From contig JAHJYW010000042.1 of the NCBI GenBank assembly GCA_018827375.1, forward strand, positions 1 to 64,000: DNA of 64,000 nucleotides. Reading direction: 5' to 3'. Under the pieces are notes generated by a model. The model was not told the origin of the DNA, searched no databases, and saw only the letters and a program-made list of their open reading frames with translations. The translations under genes and the position numbers were made by a program. This DNA comes from Alphaproteobacteria bacterium (GTDB lineage Bacteria > Pseudomonadota > Alphaproteobacteria > Caulobacterales > Hyphomonadaceae). Shown here in pieces: positions 6,579-47,600 of this stretch (its first letter is position 1; each line of letters starts with the position of its first letter).

Positions 6579-9500
6579 TGGCTATGCAGGGCTCGGGGCT
6601 TGCTCAACTTGCCGTCAGGCGACCGCTTCTGATCATGGTCATGAATCTCTTGATTGTGATCGCTGGATTGGCGTCGCTGCTTGATCTGGATATACGCGAG
6701 TTGCCGGATGTTGATCGGCCGATTGTCTCCGTTCGCGCAGCACTACCGGGCGGCGCGCCGGAAACCATGGATGCCGAGGTCACCTCAGTTCTGGAAAGTG
6801 CCATCGCCCGTGTTTCCGGCGTGCGTGAAATCGTTTCCTCGAGCGAGGAAAACAGCTCCCGCATTCGAGTCGAATTCCAGCCAGGTATCGATCTGGACAC
6901 CGCAGCCTCGGATGTCCGAGAAGCGGTAAGCCGGGTGACACGTGACCTGCCTGACCGGGTCGAAAATGTCTTCGTGACGAAGGCGGATGACGACGCCGAT
7001 CCCATCATTACAATTGCCTTTGTCAGCGACGTCTATGCAGAAGACGAGCTTACCCGCATCATTGAGACCGACATTGCGCCTGAAATCCTCTCTGTGGAGG
7101 GGGTGGCAGCTGTCCAGGAATTCGGCACTCGTCTAAGGCAGATGCGGGTAGTCATTGATCCGCTGCGATTGAACCGTTTCGGCCTTACGGTCAGCGATGT
7201 CGCCACAGCACTGCGTACCGCACCATTTGATGTTCCAGTCGGCAGCTTCCGGTCGGAGGATCAAGAGTTGATCGTGCGGGCTGAAGCGACCGCAGCCACA
7301 CCCGACCTTATCAAAGAGGTGATTATTCGCGGAAATACGCGGATCGGGGATGTGGCAGAGGTGACCCTCGCGCCTGCGGATGCGACAAATCTGCTGCGCC
7401 TGAATGGCGTGCCGGTCATTGGGCTGGGCGTCGTGCGCCAAGCGCAGTCAAATACGATCGAGATATCTGATGCCGTCGCGGCCAAAGTAAAAGAGCTCGA
7501 TCAACGCATACGGGATGTCGACATTCGCATCACGTCTGACGAAGCCGTATTCATCCGCACCTCGGTGCGTGAAGTCGTGACCAGCCTGCTGATAACAATC
7601 GTCATTGTCGTCGGAACGATCTGGGTTTTTCTGGGCTCGTGGAAAGCGACGCTTGTTCCAGCTCTGACCATTCCAATCGCCCTGATCGGGACGCTTGCCG
7701 GCATCTGGTTGCTCGGCTTTTCGATCAACCTGCTCACATTGCTCGCCCTGGTGCTGGCGACGGGCCTGATTGTGGATGATGCGATCGTGGTGCTTGAGAA
7801 CGTCCAGCGCCAGCAGGCGAATGGCATGAAACGGCGCGCCGCTGCGGCAGTAGGCACCCAACAGGTCTTCTTTGCGGTGATTGCCACGACAGCTGTTCTC
7901 GTTGCCGTGTTTGTCCCGATCTCGTTTCTGCCATCGTTCACCGGCCGACTGTTTCGGGAATTCGGCTTTGTTCTCGCTTTCGCAGTGATAATTTCCTCCT
8001 TCGTCGCAGTCACGCTGGCACCCGCAATCGCCGCGCAGTTCAGCTTTCGCAGCTCTAAGCGCGATCATTCTGCGCTGGCACGTCTGGGCGGAACATTTCA
8101 GACTGCCTATTGTCGGGCGCTCAATGTGTGCCTGAGCGCGCCACTGATTACGGTTGTTGTCTGTCTGCTTGCGGCGGGCGGGGCTGCCCTGGCTTATCAA
8201 TCTCTCGACCGCGAGCTTGTGCCGCCAGAGGATCGCGGCCGCGTAGAGGTCTTTGCTACCGGACCCGACGGCGTCGGCTTGACCTATATGGACCGTCAGG
8301 CAGATGCCATGGAGGCGATTCTTGCACCTTATACCGAGAGAGGTGACATTGATGCGGTGTTCACCATTGTCGGGCGGTACGATCCCAACCGGGTCGGCAT
8401 CACGGCGACCCTCGCCCCGTGGGATGAGCGTGATTTTAGCCAGCAGGAATTGATAGCCACCCTGCGAGGACCCATGTCGGCGATACCCGGTGCAAGGGTG
8501 TCGGTGTTTGGGCGAGGAACGCTCGACAGTGGCGGAGGAAACCGCGCCGGCCTACAGGTGGCGCTTACCGGCTCGGACTATCCGACAATATTTGCTGCTG
8601 CGCGCGAGATTGCGACGGCGATCGATACGCAGTCCGATGTTCTGACGAACGCTGAGATTTCCTATCAGCCCACGCAGCCGCAATTGTCGATCAGGGTTGA
8701 TCGCCGGCGCGCCAATGATCTCAATGTGCCGCTGGACGAGATTGAGCTAACTCTCCGGGCGATGGTTGGCGGGGAGGATGTTGTCGACCTGAATGTGCGT
8801 GATGAGGCGATTCCGATTCTTCTGGAGTCTGCGAATAGCGCAGTTCGTTCACCTGCTGATCTCAGCAATTTGCTCGTCCGTGCGGAATCTGGAATGCTGA
8901 TCCCCATTTCAAGCATGACAGAGTTTGTGGAGGAGGGCGTTGCCGCGGAACTTGATCGGGTTGCGCAGCGGCGGGCGATTGAAATCGAGATGGATATAAA
9001 TACCGGTTACGCGCTCGCCGACGCGATTGCCGAAATCAACCGGATCACATCTGAAAAGCTACCTAACGATATTGGCATGCTGCTTCAGGGCGAGGCGGCA
9101 AACCTGGAGGACTCATCGCGCGACGTGATCCTGACTTACGCTTTTGCGCTGGTCATCGTGTTTCTGGTGCTGGTGGCGCAGTTTGAAAGCTTCTCCAGTC
9201 CTATTGTCGTAATGCTTATCGTTCCATTTGGTCTTGCTGCTGCGATCTACGCTTTGTTTCTGACAGGAATATCGCTGAACATCTATTCGCAGATCGGCCT
9301 AATCCTCTTGATCGGCCTCATGGCAAAAAATGGCATCCTGCTGGTAGAGTTTGCCGACCAGCTGCGCGCCAAAGGCAACACGGTACGCGACGCTGTTTTT
9401 GAGGCTGCGAAGATCCGTGTTCGCCCTATCCTTATGACGGTAATATCAACCGCACTCGGCGTCGTCCCCTTGATCCTATCGGGCGGTGCAGGTTCCGAGG

Positions 9501-37678: not shown

Positions 37679-39070
37679 GTGGATAATCTATTGAGACAAT
37701 TGCCACAGATGCAAGCGCTCCTTGATACAGCACATATCGGGGGGTTGCTTCGGACCTATACGCGTCAGGAGGTTACCAGCGCCCTTCGCTCGACTCTTCA
37801 AGCCTTGCGCGGCAGCGTTCGATCCGGCCGCCTGACGAGCCTCCCTGATTTCGACAGCGAAACCTTTGCCACGAGCGTTGCCAGTCACATTGAAGCGGAG
37901 CGTCGACCAAACATACGCTCGGTTATAAATGCGACAGGTATCATTATCCATACCAATCTCGGCCGCGCCCGCCTTGCGCCCGAAGCGCTGGATGCCATCC
38001 AAGCGATTGGCGCGAACTATTCAAACCTTGAGCTGGACCTCCATACCGGAAAGCGTGGGTCCCGCCATTCCCATGTCGAAAATCTTATCTGCGACCTGAC
38101 CGGAGCTGAAGCCGCCCTTGTCGTGAACAATTGTGCTTCGGCTGTGCTGCTCAGCCTGATGGCAACTGCGCACGGCAAGAAAGTCATCGCGTCGCGTGGT
38201 GAACTGATCGAAATCGGGGGGGCTTTTCGCCTGCCTGACGTTATCGAACAAAGTGGTGCAATTCTCAAGGAAGTCGGTTCGACAAACAAAACCCGTGCCG
38301 CAGACTATGAGCGTGCTGTAGACAGCGAAACGGCTGTCCTCTTAAAGAGCCATACAAGCAATTTCCGCATTGTCGGATTCACGTCTGCGCCCAAGCGCGA
38401 AGACCTCGCCATAATTGCACGCAATTCAAATACCATCCTCATGGAAGACCTTGGTAGCGGTGTGCTGATAGACCTTTCTGCCTATGGCTTGCGTGATGAA
38501 CCTGTCGTATCTGACATCCTGAAATCAGGCGTGGATCTTGTCATGTTTTCGGGGGACAAACTGCTTGGCGGTCCTCAGTCGGGTATCATTGCCGGACGCG
38601 GCGATCTCGTCGGCCGGTTGAAGTCTCACCCACTCTGCCGGGCTGTGCGCCTTGACAAGCTCTCGCTCGCCGGGCTCGAGGCGACACTCCGGCTCTACCG
38701 GGAACCGCACGACCCTTTCCAAAGCGTTCCCGTCCTGCGGGCCATCGCTCAGACTATTGGTGAAATTCGCGGGCGCGCCGACCGGCTTGCCGACGCACTG
38801 ATTGCATCAGGTCTCGAAGACGTCACTGTTGCGAAGAGTGCAGCCTATGTCGGAGGCGGATCTCTGCCTCAGCAAGATCTGGAAAGTTATGCCGTTTCCC
38901 TATCTGTACCGTCTTATACAGTAGATGCGATTGTCGCCGCGCTGCGCGCCGCAGAGACACCAATTGTGGGTCTGATCAGGAGCAACCGCTTCGTCATGGA
39001 CGCCCGAACACTCACCGATGAAGATTTGCCCTTTGTGCTGAAAGCGTTTCGCGGTCTGCGCGGGCGATGA
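37679..39070 (+). CDS. selA: L-seryl-tRNA(Sec) selenium transferase
   Basis: A 463-residue PLP enzyme that converts Ser-tRNA(Sec) to Sec-tRNA(Sec) with selenophosphate. The PLP lysine is Lys294 in MFSGDKLLGGPQSG, the SelA signature. Other family motifs are NATGIIIHTNLGRA and VVNNCASAVLL. The start is a GTG at 37679 with AGAGGGG upstream. Its stop overlaps the selB ATG (ATGA). First gene of a selA-selB-selC operon that also leads into a selenoprotein gene. selD, the source of selenophosphate, is not in the window and must lie elsewhere. Confidence 0.97.
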   Translation: MDNLLRQLPQMQALLDTAHIGGLLRTYTRQEVTSALRSTLQALRGSVRSGRLTSLPDFDSETFATSVASHIEAERRPNIRSVINATGIIIHTNLGRARLAPEALDAIQAIGANYSNLELDLHTGKRGSRHSHVENLICDLTGAEAALVVNNCASAVLLSLMATAHGKKVIASRGELIEIGGAFRLPDVIEQSGAILKEVGSTNKTRAADYERAVDSETAVLLKSHTSNFRIVGFTSAPKREDLAIIARNSNTILMEDLGSGVLIDLSAYGLRDEPVVSDILKSGVDLVMFSGDKLLGGPQSGIIAGRGDLVGRLKSHPLCRAVRLDKLSLAGLEATLRLYREPHDPFQSVPVLRAIAQTIGEIRGRADRLADALIASGLEDVTVAKSAAYVGGGSLPQQDLESYAVSLSVPSYTVDAIVAALRAAETPIVGLIRSNRFVMDARTLTDEDLPFVLKAFRGLRGR

Positions 39071-40947
39071 AAACGTGTCCCGTGATAGTGATTGGGCATG
39101 TCGACCACGGGAAAACGTCACTGGTGCGCGCCCTGACAGGTATGGAAACCGATAGGTTACCAGAGGAAAAGGCGCGCGGTCTCTCCATCACGCCAGGCTT
39201 TGCCTACCGGCAGTGCAGCGATGTCATGATCGACTTCATCGACGCTCCCGGTCATGAAAATTTCGTTCGCGCCATGGTCTCCGGCGCGTCTGGTGCCCGC
39301 GCAGCCCTTCTTGTCATATCCGCAGTCGAGGGCGTACAGGCACAAACCTTGGAGCACCTTCAAATTGCTGAATCCCTCGGGATCGATGAAGGCATCGTCG
39401 CCGTCACGCAGTCAGACCGGCTTTCCAAAGCTTACCACGCTGCGCGCGAAGCGGAGCTGCGCGCTGCGTTGTCAAATACGCGATTTTGCGACGCGCCCGT
39501 CATTTTCTGTTCTTCCGTAACGGGGCAGGGGATAGACGCGCTTGTCGATGCGCTTGGGCATCTTGGCCTTCGGTCCACCGGCCCCGAGCCAGTTTGTGCG
39601 CCCTTGCTTCCGGTTGACCGGGTCTTCGTCGCCGAAGGGCGCGGCACGGTTGTTACGGGGACACTGCAAGGCGGATCAATGCAGGTAGAAGACGGTCTTG
39701 TCATTGCCGGCAAAGAGCAATCCACAACCATCCGCGGGATACACGTGCGCGGTCAGGAATCCTCTCAGGCCAATCCGGGCGAGCGTACAGCGCTGAACCT
39801 GAGAGGCATCTCCGCCAATAAAATCAAACCGGGTGATCTCCTGCATGCGCCCGACGCATTCGTCCCTTCCATTCAATGTGATGTTGTCATCAGACTGTCC
39901 CCCCGCGCCAGCCGCCCTGTCAGGCACATGCAGCAAGTCCGTGTCCTGTATGGTACCGCCCAAGCTGTCGCGAGTGTTCGCTTCTTTGCCGGGACACAAT
40001 TGGACCCGGGCACGTCGGTCTTTGCTCAGCTTCGCTTCCCTGTGGCCATCACGACCTTTGCCGGCCAACGTGCAATTATCCGTAGCCTTTCGCCAGCGCA
40101 AACCCTCGGCGGTGCAATTATACTCGATCCCGTGCCGGATCCGAACAAGACCAACAAAAAGCAACGGATCGAAACGCTCGAGGCGGCACAACGAGGCGAC
40201 ACCCCCCAGATCGCGGTGTCCCTTGCCCGGGAACATCAGGGAATTGCACGTATCGCTGACATCTGCCGCCTCGCGCGCAGGCCGGCAATAGAAGTTCGAG
40301 AGGAACTCGCCGCGACCTTCATTGACGTCACGACGACCCTCGTTTCGCCGTCAACCACCGTTGAAGAGGCGAGGGAAAACTATCTCGCACGTCTTCAATC
40401 CTGTCATGCGGCACGCCCGCTCAAGCCATTCGCGCCGCGCGCACCGATGTATACGCCGGGCACGGCACGGGCGCTGATCGCGTTCGTCGAGACGGTGCTC
40501 GTTTCGGAGGGAAAGCTGGTGCTTTCCGGCACTGATGCGGCCCTGCCAACTCACTCGCCACTTCATTACATGACCAAACATCAACAAGACCGGATGGCCT
40601 GGATGGTCGCAAAACTAAAGGCAGGGGATATTTCGCCTCCTGCGCCTGAAGCACTCTTCGCAGGTCCGGACGACGCCGATCTTCTTGCGCTTCTCGTTCA
40701 CGAAGGCGTGGCCCTTCGTCTGTACAATGTCTCACTCGGGCAGTCTCTCGTGTTTCACGCGGACGCCATCGCCGCTGCCGCCACAATACTGAAGACCCGC
40801 TATCCGGGTGAGACTGCCTTTACGACCGGAGAGGCGCGAGAGACCCTCAATACAACCCGTAAGTTTATCATACCGATCCTCGAGTATCTCGATTCACAAG
40901 GCACGACGATACGTAGGGACGACACCCGCTATATCGCTGACGTTTGA
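39067..40947 (+). CDS. selB: Selenocysteine-specific elongation factor
   Basis: A 626-residue GTPase that brings Sec-tRNA(Sec) to UGA codons by binding the SECIS hairpin. The G1 loop is GHVDHGKTS (10-18), followed by DAPGHENF (G3) and VTQSDR in place of the usual NKxD at G4. The elongation-factor barrels follow, and the C-terminal 200 residues show the winged-helix domains that bind the mRNA hairpin. Length is typical. It overlaps selA by four bases and tRNA-Sec follows 35 bases downstream. Confidence 0.97.
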   Translation: MKTCPVIVIGHVDHGKTSLVRALTGMETDRLPEEKARGLSITPGFAYRQCSDVMIDFIDAPGHENFVRAMVSGASGARAALLVISAVEGVQAQTLEHLQIAESLGIDEGIVAVTQSDRLSKAYHAAREAELRAALSNTRFCDAPVIFCSSVTGQGIDALVDALGHLGLRSTGPEPVCAPLLPVDRVFVAEGRGTVVTGTLQGGSMQVEDGLVIAGKEQSTTIRGIHVRGQESSQANPGERTALNLRGISANKIKPGDLLHAPDAFVPSIQCDVVIRLSPRASRPVRHMQQVRVLYGTAQAVASVRFFAGTQLDPGTSVFAQLRFPVAITTFAGQRAIIRSLSPAQTLGGAIILDPVPDPNKTNKKQRIETLEAAQRGDTPQIAVSLAREHQGIARIADICRLARRPAIEVREELAATFIDVTTTLVSPSTTVEEARENYLARLQSCHAARPLKPFAPRAPMYTPGTARALIAFVETVLVSEGKLVLSGTDAALPTHSPLHYMTKHQQDRMAWMVAKLKAGDISPPAPEALFAGPDDADLLALLVHEGVALRLYNVSLGQSLVFHADAIAAAATILKTRYPGETAFTTGEARETLNTTRKFIIPILEYLDSQGTTIRRDDTRYIADV

Positions 40948-40982: not shown

Positions 40983-41077
40983 GGAGGTGACTGGAGTCTG
41001 GTGGCTTCCCTGGTCTTCAAAACCATGGACGCGTCGACAAGACGTGTGGTGGGTTCGATTCCCATCCACCTCCGCCA
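40983..41077 (+). tRNA. selC: tRNA-Sec (anticodon TCA)
   Basis: A 95-base tRNA with encoded CCA. The acceptor stem pairs GGAGGTG with CACCTCC. The anticodon loop in TGGTCTTCAAAACCA presents TCA, which reads UGA. The long variable arm (GACGCGTCGACAAGACGTGT) and the 8-base acceptor/extended D-stem are typical of bacterial selenocysteine tRNA. The T-arm is GGGTTCGATTCCC. It lies directly behind selB and ahead of the selenoprotein genes. Confidence 0.97.
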
Positions 41078-41148: not shown

Positions 41149-42738
41149 ATGACGGAAACCAGACCGAGCTTCTCTCTGAAGTCTCTATCCGGCGATACTC
41201 ATTCGTTTCCGCGCGACGGCTCGCACCTCGTCATTTTTGTCAAGGAAGATTGTGAAACGTGCAACACGGCCGTCCCTGTCGTGGAGGCTCTTCACAAGGC
41301 GTACGGTGACAAGCTGCGCGTGTTGATGCCAGGCCAATCGGGAGCCGACAATGCGAGCCTCAGGGACCGCCATGGTCTCACGTTTCCGATCCTTGATGAC
41401 ACGTCCTGCAAAGTCTCCTTTGACTGGGACATTGAAATCGTTCCTTCCGTATTCTGGATGGATGCGCATGGCAGGATCATGTCACATTTCGAGGGTTTTG
41501 TGCGTGAAGAATGGCAAAGTCTGAACGCAGACCTCGCCCGGAGCCTCGATATGGCTCAAGCCCAGATCGACTGGTCTGGCCTGCCAGCATGGCGTCCCGG
41601 ATGCGGGTCCAAGCATCTTTATCCTGAAATTTACGACAAGCTCCGCGCAAGCGCAGAGGGCAGTCCGATCCGGTCGCGGCGCATAGACATTGCGCCTTCG
41701 GACGACGTGATTGAGTTCATGTTTGATCAGGGTTTTTCCGATGGTCTGCCGCTCGTGCCGCCTACGCCCGAACGGGTCCTGCGAATGCTGGACGGCACGC
41801 GCCGCCCTGCGCAAGACCTTGTTGCCACCGTCCCTCCCAATATGGGTGAAGCGACGGTAGAAAAAATTGCCATCAACGCGGTCATGGCGGGATGCAAGCC
41901 GGAATACATGCCTGTGATTATTGCCGCACTGGAGGCTGTCTGCACCGATGCATTCAATATTCATGGCGTTACTGCCACCACGATGGGGGCGGCGCCAGTG
42001 ATTGTTGTCAATGGTCCGATCCGTGACAGGATCGGCATGAATAAGGGCCTGGGGGCGCTCGGGTCCGGCAACCGCGCCAACGCGACGATCGGCCGTGCCT
42101 TGCGGCTCATCGTTGGCAATGTGGGCGGCGGAAAGCCCGGCGGCGTCGAGCGTTCTACCCTTGGCAACCCGATGAAATATACAATGTGCTTCGCGGAAAA
42201 TGAAGAACGCTCTCCCTGGCCGCCCCTTCACGTTGAACGCGGATTCAAGAAAGAGGATTCGGTCGTCACTGTCTTTGCCATGACGGGCGGGCCCGTCCAT
42301 ATTGTTGACCAGGAATCCCGCCAGCCGGAACAGGTCGCCGGCTCCATCGGGTTGGGCCTGGAAGGGGTATTCTTGCCCAAATTGAGAAACCTGCCAATCG
42401 ACGCCCTACTCGTTGTCTGCCCGGAGCACATCGACACGCTGATGAGTGAAGGCGATTATACCAAGGATCGACTGCGCGCCCGGATCCAGGAGGTGACCCG
42501 ACGCCCCTTGAGCGAGATGGTTGCCGACGACACGTCCGGCACAGGCATCCCCAAGTCAGTCGCCGAAAAAATGGAAGCGGCGAAGCTCAAGGCTGAAGTG
42601 CCGAAATTTGCGGGTCCGGAATATATCCATATTGTCGTCGCGGGATCCGATGCGGGCAAGTTCAGCTCGGCTTTCCATGGGTGGGCGACGGGTGAAATCG
42701 GTTCGCAATCGGTGTCGCGTATAATCGATTCAGGCTAG
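41149..42738 (+). CDS. Thioredoxin-like domain fused to a large conserved domain; selenoprotein partner
   Basis: A 529-residue protein without a signal peptide. The N-terminal 140 residues are a thioredoxin/peroxiredoxin-like fold with the redox motif Cys35-Glu-Thr-Cys38 (VKEDCETC). The remaining 380 residues form a domain that I cannot name, with conserved-looking GFSDGLPLVPPTP, MAGCKPEYMPVIIAALEA, GALGSGNRANATIGRALRLI and GGGKPGGVERSTLGNP. The gene has a good AGGAGAG site, begins 71 bases after tRNA-Sec, and is followed 58 bases later by a UGSC selenoprotein. It may reduce or be oxidised by that selenoprotein. It contains no in-frame TGA itself. Confidence 0.82.
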   Translation: MTETRPSFSLKSLSGDTHSFPRDGSHLVIFVKEDCETCNTAVPVVEALHKAYGDKLRVLMPGQSGADNASLRDRHGLTFPILDDTSCKVSFDWDIEIVPSVFWMDAHGRIMSHFEGFVREEWQSLNADLARSLDMAQAQIDWSGLPAWRPGCGSKHLYPEIYDKLRASAEGSPIRSRRIDIAPSDDVIEFMFDQGFSDGLPLVPPTPERVLRMLDGTRRPAQDLVATVPPNMGEATVEKIAINAVMAGCKPEYMPVIIAALEAVCTDAFNIHGVTATTMGAAPVIVVNGPIRDRIGMNKGLGALGSGNRANATIGRALRLIVGNVGGGKPGGVERSTLGNPMKYTMCFAENEERSPWPPLHVERGFKKEDSVVTVFAMTGGPVHIVDQESRQPEQVAGSIGLGLEGVFLPKLRNLPIDALLVVCPEHIDTLMSEGDYTKDRLRARIQEVTRRPLSEMVADDTSGTGIPKSVAEKMEAAKLKAEVPKFAGPEYIHIVVAGSDAGKFSSAFHGWATGEIGSQSVSRIIDSG

Positions 42739-42796
42739 CGGCATTATACTGAACGGCTATGGTGAAAAAGTCACGCGAGCAGAAGAAGGATGGAAA

Positions 42797-43315
42797 ATGA
42801 CAACAATTCTTGACCCCACGGATGAGCGAAAGCCGGTCGAGCGTCAGATCTCGCCCAGAAATGGAGCGCTCACGGGGACGATCGGCCTGCTGGATATCCG
42901 TAAGCCCCGTGGCAGCGTGTTGCTCGATGAGCTTGAGCAACAGCTTGCGATCCGCTTGCCTGGCATCACGGTGAAGCGGTATTCGAAGCCAACCTTCACC
43001 AAGCCGTGTCCCGATGACCTGCGCCGCGAAATTGCAAGTGAAGTGGACTATCTGGTCGAAGCACTGGCCGATTGAGGTTCCTGTACGACGTGCAGTCTGC
43101 ACGACACAGTCTGGTTTGAAATCCAGGGAATCCCATCGGTCTCCATTGCTTCATCCGAGTTCGAGGAAGCTGCCAATTTTCAGCGCAGTGCGCTTGGCAT
43201 GGAAGACGCTCGCTATGTCCTTGTCCCACATCCAATCCAGGATGCCACGGATGATGAAATGCGAACCAAGGCAAGACATGCGCTCACCAGCATTATCAAT
43301 GCACTGACAAAGTAG
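42797..43315 (+). CDS. UGSC-type selenoprotein (in-frame TGA = selenocysteine 93)
   Basis: A 172-residue protein if TGA at 43073-43075 is read as selenocysteine. Upstream is a 92-codon frame (GTIGLLDIRKPRG...) with AAGGA before the ATG. The same frame continues for 79 codons after the TGA to a TAG at 43313-43315. The junction reads Sec93-Gly-Ser-Cys96-Thr-Thr-Cys99. This matches the UGSC-containing selenoprotein family, known from environmental selenoproteome surveys and of unknown function. The downstream part has VLVPHPIQD near residues 141-148, typical of that family. A SECIS-like hairpin follows the TGA, and selA, selB and tRNA-Sec lie just upstream. A gene caller without recoding would stop at 43075. 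Confidence 0.92.
43073..43109 (+). promoter_or_regulatory. Bacterial SECIS-like hairpin
   Basis: The apical stem pairs GTGC (43090-43093) with GCAC (43099-43102) around the loop AGTCT, which has a G in its second position. The lower stem pairs CTGT (43081-43084) with ACAG (43106-43109) across an internal loop. The apical loop starts about 18 bases after the TGA, within the range known for bacterial SECIS elements. It lies inside the coding sequence, as bacterial ones do. Confidence 0.75.
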
Positions 43316-43350: not shown

Positions 43351-43465
43351 GGTGCTGTCAGGCTAATGCTTACCGTCTCTATTCTTCGTGGACGAGCAGG
43401 TGTTGGGCGACGAAAAGGTCGCGCCACTCGCGAAGGGCGGCGTCGCATTTCTGTTTGACCAGATA
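43351..43465 (-). mobile_element. Decayed end of an IS6-like element
   Basis: From GGTGCTGTCAG at 43351 the sequence tracks the left end of the intact element at 46786 for about 115 bases. It includes an exact shared run around AAGGTCGCGCC and ACTCGCGAAGGGCGGCGTC, with scattered substitutions elsewhere. It holds the terminal repeat and the 3' end of the transposase frame only, so it is a diverged fragment. The bases from 43466 to 43554 hold nothing I can identify. Confidence 0.8.
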
Positions 43466-43554: not shown

Positions 43555-44505
43555 TTATTTCCGTTTAGGCTTTTCCTTTTTTTGCGGTTTGGCAGGCAGT
43601 GGCGTCAACAGCTCTGCTGCAACGTCGCGGAAAACGAGCCCGAGTTTCTGGATATTTGCCTCAAGCGGCGATCCTGCCCGCCAGACCAGGCTGATTTGTC
43701 TGCGAGCCAGCGGATGATCAATCGGACGGACTACCTGAGAAGGATCCTTACGGGCCTCCACGAGCGCGTAGAGGCTTGGCAGAATAGCAATTCCAGCCCC
43801 CATTCCCGCCATCTGGCGTAGGGCATCAAGCGAGGTACCTTCATACTCAGTGGAAACATGAGCGCCTGCAGCTTCGGCCAGATTCTGAACAATCATGCTT
43901 AGGCGGTGTCCATAGCCAAGACTCAGGAACTCACGACCTTTCAAGTCCGACAGCTGGATAGCATCGCCGCGCTCAGACAGCGGATCGTCCGGTGCTGCGC
44001 AGGCGTAAAGTTGCTCGTCAAAAAGCTGCATGGATTCGGAGTAGACGTGGTCTTCAGCGGTCGAGATAATGAGATCGAGACGCCCATCATTTAGCTTCTC
44101 GTCGAGATCTATCGTGCGTTCCTCCCGGACACTCATTCTCAATTCAGGGTAAAGTTGGTGCAGTTCACGAACCGCACTCGGAAGGAGATAGGGGCCGATC
44201 GTTGGAAGCGTTCCAAGCCTGTAGCGTCCAACGACGTCACCAGCAGCTTGCCGGGCGACTGTTTTCATATCCTCGACCTGAGTGAGAATGATGCGGGCGC
44301 GGCGGACGACCTCTGCGCCAACGGGTGTCATGACCGCTCCGGTGCGTGAGCGCTCAATCAGCGTAATGCCCAGCTGGGCTTCCGCATCCGAGATCTGCTC
44401 TGACAGGCTTGGCTGACTGACGCTCAGCAGCTCCGCCGCGTCCCTGAACCGACCGGTGTCTGCGACCGCCACGATGTATTGCATTTGACGAAGGGTGGGC
44501 CTCAT
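43555..44505 (-). CDS. LysR-family regulator, OxyR-like but lacking redox cysteines
   Basis: A 316-residue LysR protein. The helix-turn-helix lies at residues 18-50 (GRFRDAAELLSVSQPSLSEQI), and a periplasmic-binding-like effector domain follows. The effector domain looks like OxyR (ARAPDDPLSER-type and LSLGYGHRL segments), but where OxyR has its reactive Cys in GHC this protein has GHR (His200-Arg201), and the only cysteine is Cys169. Peroxide sensing by the OxyR mechanism is therefore unlikely. It is divergent from the small genes leading to nhaA. The tail is very basic. Confidence 0.85.
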   Translation of the reverse strand: MRPTLRQMQYIVAVADTGRFRDAAELLSVSQPSLSEQISDAEAQLGITLIERSRTGAVMTPVGAEVVRRARIILTQVEDMKTVARQAAGDVVGRYRLGTLPTIGPYLLPSAVRELHQLYPELRMSVREERTIDLDEKLNDGRLDLIISTAEDHVYSESMQLFDEQLYACAAPDDPLSERGDAIQLSDLKGREFLSLGYGHRLSMIVQNLAEAAGAHVSTEYEGTSLDALRQMAGMGAGIAILPSLYALVEARKDPSQVVRPIDHPLARRQISLVWRAGSPLEANIQKLGLVFRDVAAELLTPLPAKPQKKEKPKRK

Positions 44506-46785: not shown

Positions 46786-47600
46786 GGTGCTGTCAGTCGA
46801 ATGTGAACCCGTCTCCGATATTCGCGGACCAGCAGGTGCTAGGCGACGAGAAGGTCGCGCCACTCGCGAAGGGCGGCGTCTCGTTTCTGTTTGAACCGGA
46901 TTCTGGTGTTGATGTGCCTTTCGAAGTTGAAGTGATTGTACACTGACGAATGAAATGAGACGAACTTCTGCAGACTTCGCATCCGCCTGAACCGGGACAT
47001 CGCCCGCTCTCGCCTTCGGAAGGGCAGGTGTGAATTCTCAGCTCGGTTATTGAGATGTCGACCGGTTTCCTGGCGCTTCTCATTCCCGATCGCTTTCATA
47101 GCCGCCCGATAAGAGGGGCACTTGTCCGTCACGACGATATGCGGACTGCCATAGCGCTTCATTGCTTTCTTCAAGAATTTCAACGCAGCAGCCTTATCCC
47201 TCTTCTTCGTGACAAAGGATTCCAGGACTTCGCCTTCGTGGTCGACAGCGCGCCAAAGATAATGGCGCTCTCCTCGGATTTTGACGAAGACCTCATCCAG
47301 GTGCCACTGCCATTGCGGGCTGCGCCGTATGGATTCCGAACGCCGTTTCCTGATTTTATGTGCGAAGTAAGTGCCGAACCGATCGACCCAGAGACGGACG
47401 CTTTCGTGGCAAACATCGATGCCGCGCTCGTGGAGAAGATCTTCCACGTTCCTAAGGGACAGCGGGAAGCGGACATACATGAGTACGGCGAGCTGGATGA
47501 TCTCAAGCGAGGTTTTGAAGTAGCGAAACGGGTTTTTGACCATTTCCTAAGGCTAAACACCAGGAACGGTCACCTCAAGTCCGGTTCCGCTGACAACACC
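46786..47600 (-). mobile_element. IS6-family insertion sequence, complete
   Basis: An 815-bp element with terminal inverted repeats: GGTGCTGTCAGTCGAA at 46786 and, read from the other end, GGTGTTGTCAGCGGAA at 47600. It holds one intact transposase gene (46839-47543). Flanks are GGCTTTTA on the left and CTTGCATA on the right, so no eight-base target duplication is seen. This suggests deletion or recombination after insertion. The right end cuts an OLD-type ATPase gene. Confidence 0.88.
46839..47543 (-). CDS. IS6-family transposase
   Basis: A 234-residue DDE transposase. The catalytic residues are Asp83 (WHLDEVFVKI), Asp140 (IVVTDKCPSY) and Glu169 (NNRAENSH). An N-terminal helix-turn-helix region contains FPLSLRNVEDLLHERGI. 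Length and motifs are complete, so it is probably active. Confidence 0.95.
   Translation of the reverse strand: MVKNPFRYFKTSLEIIQLAVLMYVRFPLSLRNVEDLLHERGIDVCHESVRLWVDRFGTYFAHKIRKRRSESIRRSPQWQWHLDEVFVKIRGERHYLWRAVDHEGEVLESFVTKKRDKAAALKFLKKAMKRYGSPHIVVTDKCPSYRAAMKAIGNEKRQETGRHLNNRAENSHLPFRRRERAMSRFRRMRSLQKFVSFHSSVYNHFNFERHINTRIRFKQKRDAALREWRDLLVA

Follow-up and report, generated by a model that had tools for sequence, protein, structure and literature searches.

The locus described here raises the question whether a TGA that interrupts an otherwise open reading frame is translated as selenocysteine (Sec), and, if this is the case, what the resulting protein may do. In the window, by which we mean the whole stretch of 64,000 nucleotides that was analysed, one frame on the forward strand (42797-43315) starts with ATG at 42797, comprises 92 codons up to TGA 43073-43075, and continues for 79 codons to a TAG stop at 43313-43315. 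With the TGA, which is codon 93, read as Sec, the frame encodes 172 residues with the junction D92-U93-G-S-C96-T-T-C99. A sequence-only reading of this DNA had described the two-part frame, the Sec-Gly-Ser-Cys junction with a further Cys three residues on, and a downstream HPI motif, and all of these are borne out; H145-P146-I147 is present, and H145 and P146 are invariant in 31 aligned homologues. The features of the locus are the following:

37679..39070, forward strand: selA, selenocysteine synthase (TIGR00474, 570.8 bits, cut-off 267.9), overlapping selB by 4 nt
39067..40947, forward strand: selB, selenocysteine elongation factor (TIGR00475, 291 bits, cut-off 242.25)
40983..41077, forward strand: selC, tRNA-Sec with anticodon tca (Rfam RF01852, 73.8 bits; ARAGORN)
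41149..42738, forward strand: partner gene, 529 residues, thioredoxin-like N-terminal domain plus a domain termed Unk1 (start codon chosen by homology)
41149..41598 (approximate borders), forward strand: thioredoxin-like domain of the partner, with ResA/thioredoxin-fold matches
41704..42735, forward strand: Unk1 domain (residues 186-529 of the partner; Cys249 and Cys347 invariant)
42785..42790, forward strand: ribosome-binding-site-like GAAGGA, 6 nt 5' of the ATG (by inspection only)
42797..43315, forward strand: UGSC selenoprotein gene, Sec at residue 93, TAG stop (NF041046, 163 bits; PF24696, 172.4 bits)
43073..43075, forward strand: in-frame TGA, inferred Sec codon, kept as TGA or as a Cys codon in homologues
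43089..43103, forward strand: putative bacterial SECIS hairpin, stem CGTGC/GCACG, apical AGTCT, under comparative constraint

One gene across the TGA

By its profile matches, the window protein is a member of the UGSC family, one already represented in NCBIfam and Pfam: the model NF041046 (UGSC family (seleno)protein) matches at 163 bits with a cut-off of 125, and PF24696 at 172.4 bits with a cut-off of 25. The family and the window protein have the whole length, the UGSC...C motif and the HPI motif in common, and there is no essential difference between them; the window member sits in a compact selA-selB-selC-partner-UGSC cluster. The 92-residue part before the TGA and the 79-residue part behind it each match both models separately, the latter with E-values of 2e-26 (NF041046) and 1.5e-25 (PF24696). 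Of 20,000 random sequences with the local composition, 4.6% contain an open frame of 79 codons, which is therefore weak evidence when taken alone; as far as sequences can tell, it is the homology of the post-TGA part that is decisive for one continuous gene. In addition, codon differences behind the TGA are more often synonymous than not in comparison with all 12 relatives compared (26 synonymous and 11 nonsynonymous in case of the relative L046), which are plain counts and not dN/dS values. Similarity of the homologues does not end at residue 92, but extends past residue 93 over the rest of the protein, and the frame beyond the TGA is conserved in relatives. The identity as a UGSC-type selenoprotein, as originally proposed, is thus supported by the family match of the whole and of each half, by Cys homologues, and by the conserved post-TGA frame.

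How is the Sec site treated in homologues? In a sample of the class, 72 matches were obtained at E-values up to 0.001, with 25 of them over the family cut-off, and a single TGA lies inside 70 of the 72. One of the two matches without a TGA, that of genome G228 (stretches L029 and L104), was set aside as not being a UGSC protein, as it looks by eye like a 3-hydroxyacyl-CoA dehydrogenase. A sample of the phylum contains one TGA in four of five rows, the fifth being a Cys form, and a sample of relatives contains one TGA in all 13 rows, two of which belong to a single gene that is divided between contig ends. The sequence-only reading had suggested a search for Cys-containing homologues with CGSC at the same place, and such homologues exist at 28 loci from named genomes, among them Methylobacterium, Bradyrhizobium, Elioraea, Saprospiraceae and Cyclobacteriaceae; as the scan of named genomes required a Cys codon, only Cys forms could turn up in it. 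The U/C-G-S-C motif is invariant in 31 aligned members (TGA read as C), which were drawn from 44 genes picked by the motif UGSC/UGTC..C itself, and many of the invariant residues of this alignment cluster at D92-U-G-S-C and C99. As the motif pattern took UGSC/UGTC..C genes only, the counts of 71 loci and of hairpins given below are without variant and fused forms, which were read separately (L068, L072, L074, L089, L091-L103), and one gene, present as L090 and L113 on equally long contigs with identical DNA at the site, is counted twice in the 29 Cys entries as well as in the 71 loci.

It had also been stated that UGSC selenoproteins have no assigned function, and the literature agrees, as far as its accessible passages go: UGSC is there a predicted selenoprotein without function (PMC2398784, PMC13188914, PMC5029168, PMC9312934, PMC9402790, PMC5330540, PMC7539508, PMC7435645), and a review of 2026 lists it among the selenoproteins whose functions are largely uncharacterised (PMC13188914). 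Selenocysteine genes in Alphaproteobacteria are treated in PMC8124441. The further expectation that an ordinary annotation would give only a truncated protein holds in part. On plasmid p2-T1 of Acidovorax sp. T1 (L168, 7908-8198), a UGSC gene with TGA is indeed annotated as a 96-residue hypothetical protein that ends exactly at the TGA; on the other hand, the family has NCBIfam and Pfam models, and its name stands in several public plasmid records, so that current annotation can find UGSC.

Probable decoding of the TGA

The hairpin CGTGCAGTCTGCACG at 43089-43103 begins 13 nt after the TGA. Of the earlier description of a SECIS-like hairpin at this place, the position and a tighter constraint in Sec genes than in Cys genes could be retained, the stability of the single sequence could not: 43073-43110 folded singly does not stand out in stability from dinucleotide shuffles (z -0.16, with 84 of 200 shuffles folding as well), the same applies to two other stretches folded singly, and stability by itself was therefore dropped as evidence. 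The comparison of genes gives a different picture. The apical-loop codon is NGT in all 43 Sec genes (36 distinct sequences; AGT in 31, TGT in 12), whereas it is never AGT in the 29 Cys entries, which have Ser in 28 (TCN or AGC) and Thr in one. The six stem positions are paired in 93% of the cells in the 36 distinct Sec sequences versus 65% in the 27 distinct Cys sequences, and the mean hairpin energy is -7.5 kcal/mol in Sec genes against -2.9 for synonymous versions, with -3.6 against -2.1 kcal/mol in Cys genes, whereby the genes compared are not independent, as many of them are closely related. When each sequence is set against its own synonymous versions, 8 of the 36 Sec sequences (median 8.9%) and 4 of the 27 Cys sequences (median 33.5%) fall within the lowest 5%. 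Formal covariation is weak, as 57 shuffles in 500 score at least as high as the alignment itself. Of the 36 distinct Sec sequences, 22 are in this alignment, and its pairing of 100% is a result of selection, because L075, L079 and L084, which break the second stem pair, are not among the 22. The assignment as SECIS element, a predicted one, is thus based on the comparison of genes and not on the single hairpin.

The machinery for decoding is encoded right at the locus. The genes selA, selB and the tRNA-Sec gene lie directly upstream of the partner and UGSC genes on the same strand, and selD is found elsewhere in the same genome (G000:C25:46353-47279), so that the full set of SelA, SelB, SelC and SelD is present. 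Within 61 related genomes, the own genome included, UGSC is found in 12, selA in 11, and a tRNA-Sec of at least 69 bits in 11. The selA genomes and the tRNA-Sec genomes are the same 11, and all of them have UGSC. The limit of 69 bits was set because the tRNA-Sec model also matches other tRNAs, probably tRNA-Ser, in all 61 genomes, and the best score in the rows below the 11 is 52.6 bits or less. A selD match occurs in 37 of the 61 genomes and in 10 of the 11 with selA; the eleventh, G590 (90% complete), gave no such match. The order selA, selB, tRNA-Sec, partner, UGSC on one strand is seen at nine of the ten genus loci that were taken out, the tenth being that of G568, and at L056 and L057 selA and selB are on the opposite strand from UGSC and the partner. 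As the own genome gave one UGSC match, no match to formate dehydrogenase alpha at 1e-60 (only G572 has one among the 11 selA genomes) and no GRDB match at 0.01, UGSC is the only Sec client found in a search that was not exhaustive.

Some peculiarities of the selenium genes were seen on the way. In G572 (L053, 2742-4117), selA is split over two frames, by a frameshift or by an assembly error in a fragmented genome. Near the cluster of G575, G577 and G582 (L048, L052, L055) there is a frame, about 730 residues long and matching selD, which we take to resemble an NADH-dehydrogenase-like/SelD fusion; the selD of the window's genome, located elsewhere, is a frame of ordinary length.

Could the TGA nevertheless be a true stop that terminates a 92-residue protein, or could the gene be a pseudogene? 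The inconspicuous single hairpin would be compatible with this, and so would be the twelfth UGSC genome, G568, which keeps UGSC with its TGA, while neither selA nor, above the cut-off, selB was matched there and no tRNA-Sec scored more than 47.1 bits; the UGSC-bearing stretch itself (L049, G568:C13) contains none of the three. However, the conserved frame behind the TGA, the Cys homologues, and selA, selB and selC next door argue against a true stop to such an extent that we consider it hardly worth entertaining. G568 rather appears to represent a loss. Its partner gene is cut down to residues 316-529, and the break is occupied by an element whose transposase has a DDE_Tnp_IS240 domain (L049, 6266-7667); the DNA likeness to the window's copy of the element stops at locus position 7023, and the likeness to the partner starts at 7026. 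It is therefore likely that a deletion caused by this element removed the missing genes, and that it did so recently, as the stranded UGSC gene still differs mostly synonymously from its relatives. That UGSC is a genuine selenoprotein whose UGA codon 93 is decoded as Sec by the SelA, SelB and tRNA-Sec encoded upstream is, judged from these comparisons, nearly certain.

The window itself carries the full transposase-bearing DDE_Tnp_IS240 element at 46839-47543 on the reverse strand, and about 108 nt at 43351-43458, 36 nt past the UGSC stop, are 84% identical to the end of this element.

A partner gene with thioredoxin-like and Unk1 domains

What may the selenoprotein work with? The gene directly upstream encodes, in its N-terminal part, a thioredoxin-like domain with a CxxC at residues 35 and 38, for which the NCBIfam and Pfam matches stay below the curated cut-offs, and the Unk1 domain in the remainder. 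For Unk1, only thioredoxin-type Pfam families were reported at E-values up to 0.01 when 33 members (of 46 candidates) were scanned, NCBIfam gave no match to the Unk1 part of the window protein, and a fold search with the partner had only thioredoxin-fold chains among the best 50 matches listed, with none for Unk1.

At 67 of 71 loci, which were drawn from the Sec and Cys sets of UGSC homologues, the end of Unk1 is no more than 600 nt upstream of UGSC, on the same strand. The stretches examined at L066, L071 and L086 gave no Unk1, and at L133 Unk1 comes after UGSC in the same frame. With the window's thioredoxin-like domain as query, such a domain was found in the same frame as Unk1 at 51 of the 71 loci, and none was found at the other 20. 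On plasmids of haloarchaea, Actinomycetota and Betaproteobacteria, Unk1 adjoins UGSC at all six loci that were examined of eight found, and where public plasmid tables list the Unk1 gene, they name it hypothetical; on the above-mentioned Acidovorax plasmid, the Unk1 domain at 8523-9443, behind UGSC, has no gene in the incomplete table. An Arthrobacter plasmid has trxB, trxA, Unk1 and UGSC in one row, and in Variovorax two genes lie between trxB and Unk1. In other genomes the UGSC domain is fused in front of Unk1, and 6 of 11 loci of one fused type hold a thioredoxin-reductase-like frame, which in L093 is on the other strand.

A fusion of UGSC to a conserved domain called Unknown_1 has been mentioned in the 2008 GOS survey (PMC2398784, Fig. 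S1A), in the text and legend of which a UGSC domain is combined with a conserved domain, as is the case here. Unknown_1, which we know from that text and legend, is perhaps the same as Unk1; in contrast to the fusion, UGSC and Unk1 are mostly separate neighbouring genes in the 71 loci counted here. What is new is the thioredoxin-Unk1 architecture and the near-constant pairing with UGSC. Such a constant partner, often joined to thioredoxin, suggests how the UGSC protein might work, and it is very probable that UGSC and the upstream thioredoxin-Unk1 protein together make up one enzyme, in which UGSC contributes the selenium; the pairing of the genes is observed, and the complex of the proteins would follow from it. 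In the open-licence literature, as far as its text was available, we found no proposal for the role of the partner or for the link to PrdB that is described below.

The other gene neighbours of UGSC differ by lineage. At five Bacteroidota Cys loci (L106, L108, L111, L116, L117), the gene for a relative of the 3-keto-5-aminohexanoate cleavage enzyme immediately precedes that of the partner and has the same orientation, and relatives of 3-hydroxyacyl-CoA dehydrogenase and of an amino-acid transporter are encoded on the other strand, these names coming from scans of one member per family, all with scores below the curated cut-offs. Neighbours at the plasmid loci are CoA transferases, relatives of isocitrate lyase/PEP mutase and of phosphosulfolactate synthase, and solute-binding proteins. 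Such predicted neighbours fit a catabolic reductase, and they name no substrate. In the window, an OxyR-like LysR regulator is convergent with UGSC (43555-44505, reverse strand; 203.9 bits, with a cut-off of 329 for the OxyR model).

Predicted fold and proposed reductase

For the UGSC protein, an AlphaFold2 model based on 31 sequences has a pLDDT of 93.8 and consists of one alternating alpha/beta domain, in which the Sec is positioned at the end of a strand, directly ahead of the next helix. The predicted domain is flavodoxin-like, which disagrees with the statement in PMC2398784, as given in the portion of that paper available to us, that the UGSC protein likely has a thioredoxin-like fold. 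The first Foldseek matches were the FMN reductase MsuE, azoreductases and flavodiiron proteins, with TM-scores near 0.5; in the best 50 of 1757 matches, the TM-scores by query length range from 0.31 to 0.57, lumazine synthase and TIR domains also occur, and there is no thioredoxin. A PDB sequence search with the UGSC profile gave two matches (E 0.29 and 0.69) that look like chance, and the same search with a PrdB-like protein gave two likewise chance-like matches.

Two of the rival explanations depend on this fold. The 2008 ocean survey would give UGSC a thioredoxin-like fold and make it a general thiol/selenol-disulfide oxidoreductase or an antioxidant. UGSC does have the UxxC motif in common with thioredoxin-like selenoproteins, thioredoxin and thioredoxin reductase are fused or neighbouring, the UGSC gene of the window adjoins that of an OxyR-like regulator, and the accessible text of PMC2398784 states such a fold. 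The predicted fold differs, however, with thioredoxins missing from the best 50 of 1757 matches, the thioredoxin domain belongs to the partner of UGSC and not to UGSC itself, and the neighbours look catabolic in several lineages (CoA transferases, the 3-keto-5-aminohexanoate-cleavage-enzyme relative, solute-binding proteins), which together render a general oxidoreductase rather unlikely. Alternatively, UGSC could be a flavoprotein, in which the modelled flavodoxin-like fold would bind FMN and the Sec would cooperate with the flavin. The flavoenzymes among the first Foldseek matches speak for this, but the same range of TM-scores and the presence of lumazine synthase and TIR domains among those best 50 of 1757 speak against it, as does the clustering of many invariant residues at D92-U-G-S-C and C99, and we regard a flavoprotein as improbable, more so than the general oxidoreductase.

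A possible kinship of another type is that with the D-proline reductase protein PrdB and the glycine/betaine/sarcosine reductase selenoprotein B (TIGR04483, PF07355), with which UGSC has an aligned Sec/Cys motif and a similar Sec-proximal half. GRDB matches (29 in number, L134-L162) were found in 18 of 190 genomes of the class, many of them in PrdB-like short proteins, and no Unk1 match was obtained on these stretches. A PrdB profile was built from 22 of the 29 matches; in these short proteins the Sec site is TGA in 18 of the 22, and U or C is followed by P-x-C in 21, L141 having UPLD. PrdB-like short proteins of the class match TIGR04483 with E-values down to 5.5e-52, the five that were scanned all being below cut-off. 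Compared with the 22 PrdB-like proteins, the 31-sequence UGSC profile reaches a probability of 67.3% (score 37.2), and a profile of 87 sequences, of which hhalign kept 72, reaches 89.7% (score 47.0), with Sec aligned to Sec. Controls for the score of 47.0 were at most 21.4 in 60 column-shuffled profiles and 12.8 with the reversed profile, and the best of 42 unrelated profiles scored 28.0; these 42 are what remained of a background of 44 neighbour families after UGSC itself and the partner had been set aside. UGSC scores 34.2 over 18 columns with the partner family and 37.5 over 13 columns with Unk1 alone, probably as a result of fused sequences that include the beginning of Unk1, and such scores thus need to be taken with caution.

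Masking of alignment columns located the source of the similarity. With nine columns masked at the UxxC motif, the probability is 90%; with the Sec column or four motif columns masked, it is 80%, and with random residues 61-68%; with columns 150-175 masked, which follow directly on the Sec motif, it drops to 1.2%. The likeness to PrdB/GrdB, a profile-based one, is well above the controls, but it mainly comes from one segment of about 25 columns, and this dependence would permit a generic alpha/beta likeness or convergence. A convergent or generic likeness, with UGSC as an independent family of selenium nucleophiles, would agree with the restriction of the similarity to the Sec-proximal half, with the lower probability of the narrower profile, and with the curated models, as no match of the window protein was reported to PF07355 (Pfam, E up to 1) or TIGR04483 (NCBIfam, E up to 0.001). 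Against it stand the score above the shuffled, reversed and 42 unrelated controls, the alignment of Sec with Sec, and the persistence of the match after masking of the nine motif columns. We think that convergence has perhaps one chance in a few, and that it is the most serious of the rival explanations. The Pfam GRDB matches end about two residues before the Sec, at 344-345 of 347, which may be the reason why a link of UGSC to PrdB is easily missed.

A further resemblance to the PrdB/GrdB systems lies in the thioredoxin-linked genes near UGSC. Differences are that no match of the window protein to a curated model was reported, and perhaps the partner, which is a pyruvoyl substrate subunit (GrdE/PrdA type) in the GrdB/PrdB family and Unk1 in case of UGSC. 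Moreover, many UGSC hosts are, judged from the organism names, probably not amino-acid fermenters.

Taken as a whole, the explanation that we favour, and hold to be reasonably likely, is that the UGSC selenoprotein is one half of a thioredoxin-driven, PrdB/GrdB-like reductase. Its UGSC domain would have a flavodoxin-like alpha/beta structure and would be a relative of the Sec domain in PrdB/GrdB. Sec93, which immediately precedes the helix behind a central strand, would attack a substrate that is bound mainly by Unk1 and would thereby reductively cleave a bond of this substrate, upon which Cys96 would resolve the product by forming a selenenyl sulfide. Thioredoxin reductase would recharge the CxxC in the fused thioredoxin domain, and this CxxC would return the Sec to its reduced state. 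The substrate might be a carboxylate or a CoA-linked metabolite, as hinted by the catabolic neighbours. For this mechanism in its details, we see the chances as evenly divided.

The UGSC family is among the most abundant selenoproteins of aquatic metagenomes, accounting for 8.2% of the selenoprotein genes in one aquatic survey, according to the available text of PMC9402790. The family itself was already known, and what is added here is a partner, an electron route, and a tentative kinship to PrdB/GrdB. With a near-constant partner, a likely electron supply, and a possible kinship to proline and glycine reductases, the function of UGSC becomes testable. Somewhat more speculatively, and with the odds leaning against it, UGSC and Unk1 may constitute a widespread reductase family, so far undescribed, which is driven by thioredoxin and uses selenium (or sulfur) in the manner of D-proline or glycine reductase in non-fermenting bacteria and haloarchaea. 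In the genus, it may be on account of this single enzyme that the Sec system has been retained, lost, and perhaps transferred as a cassette of five genes.
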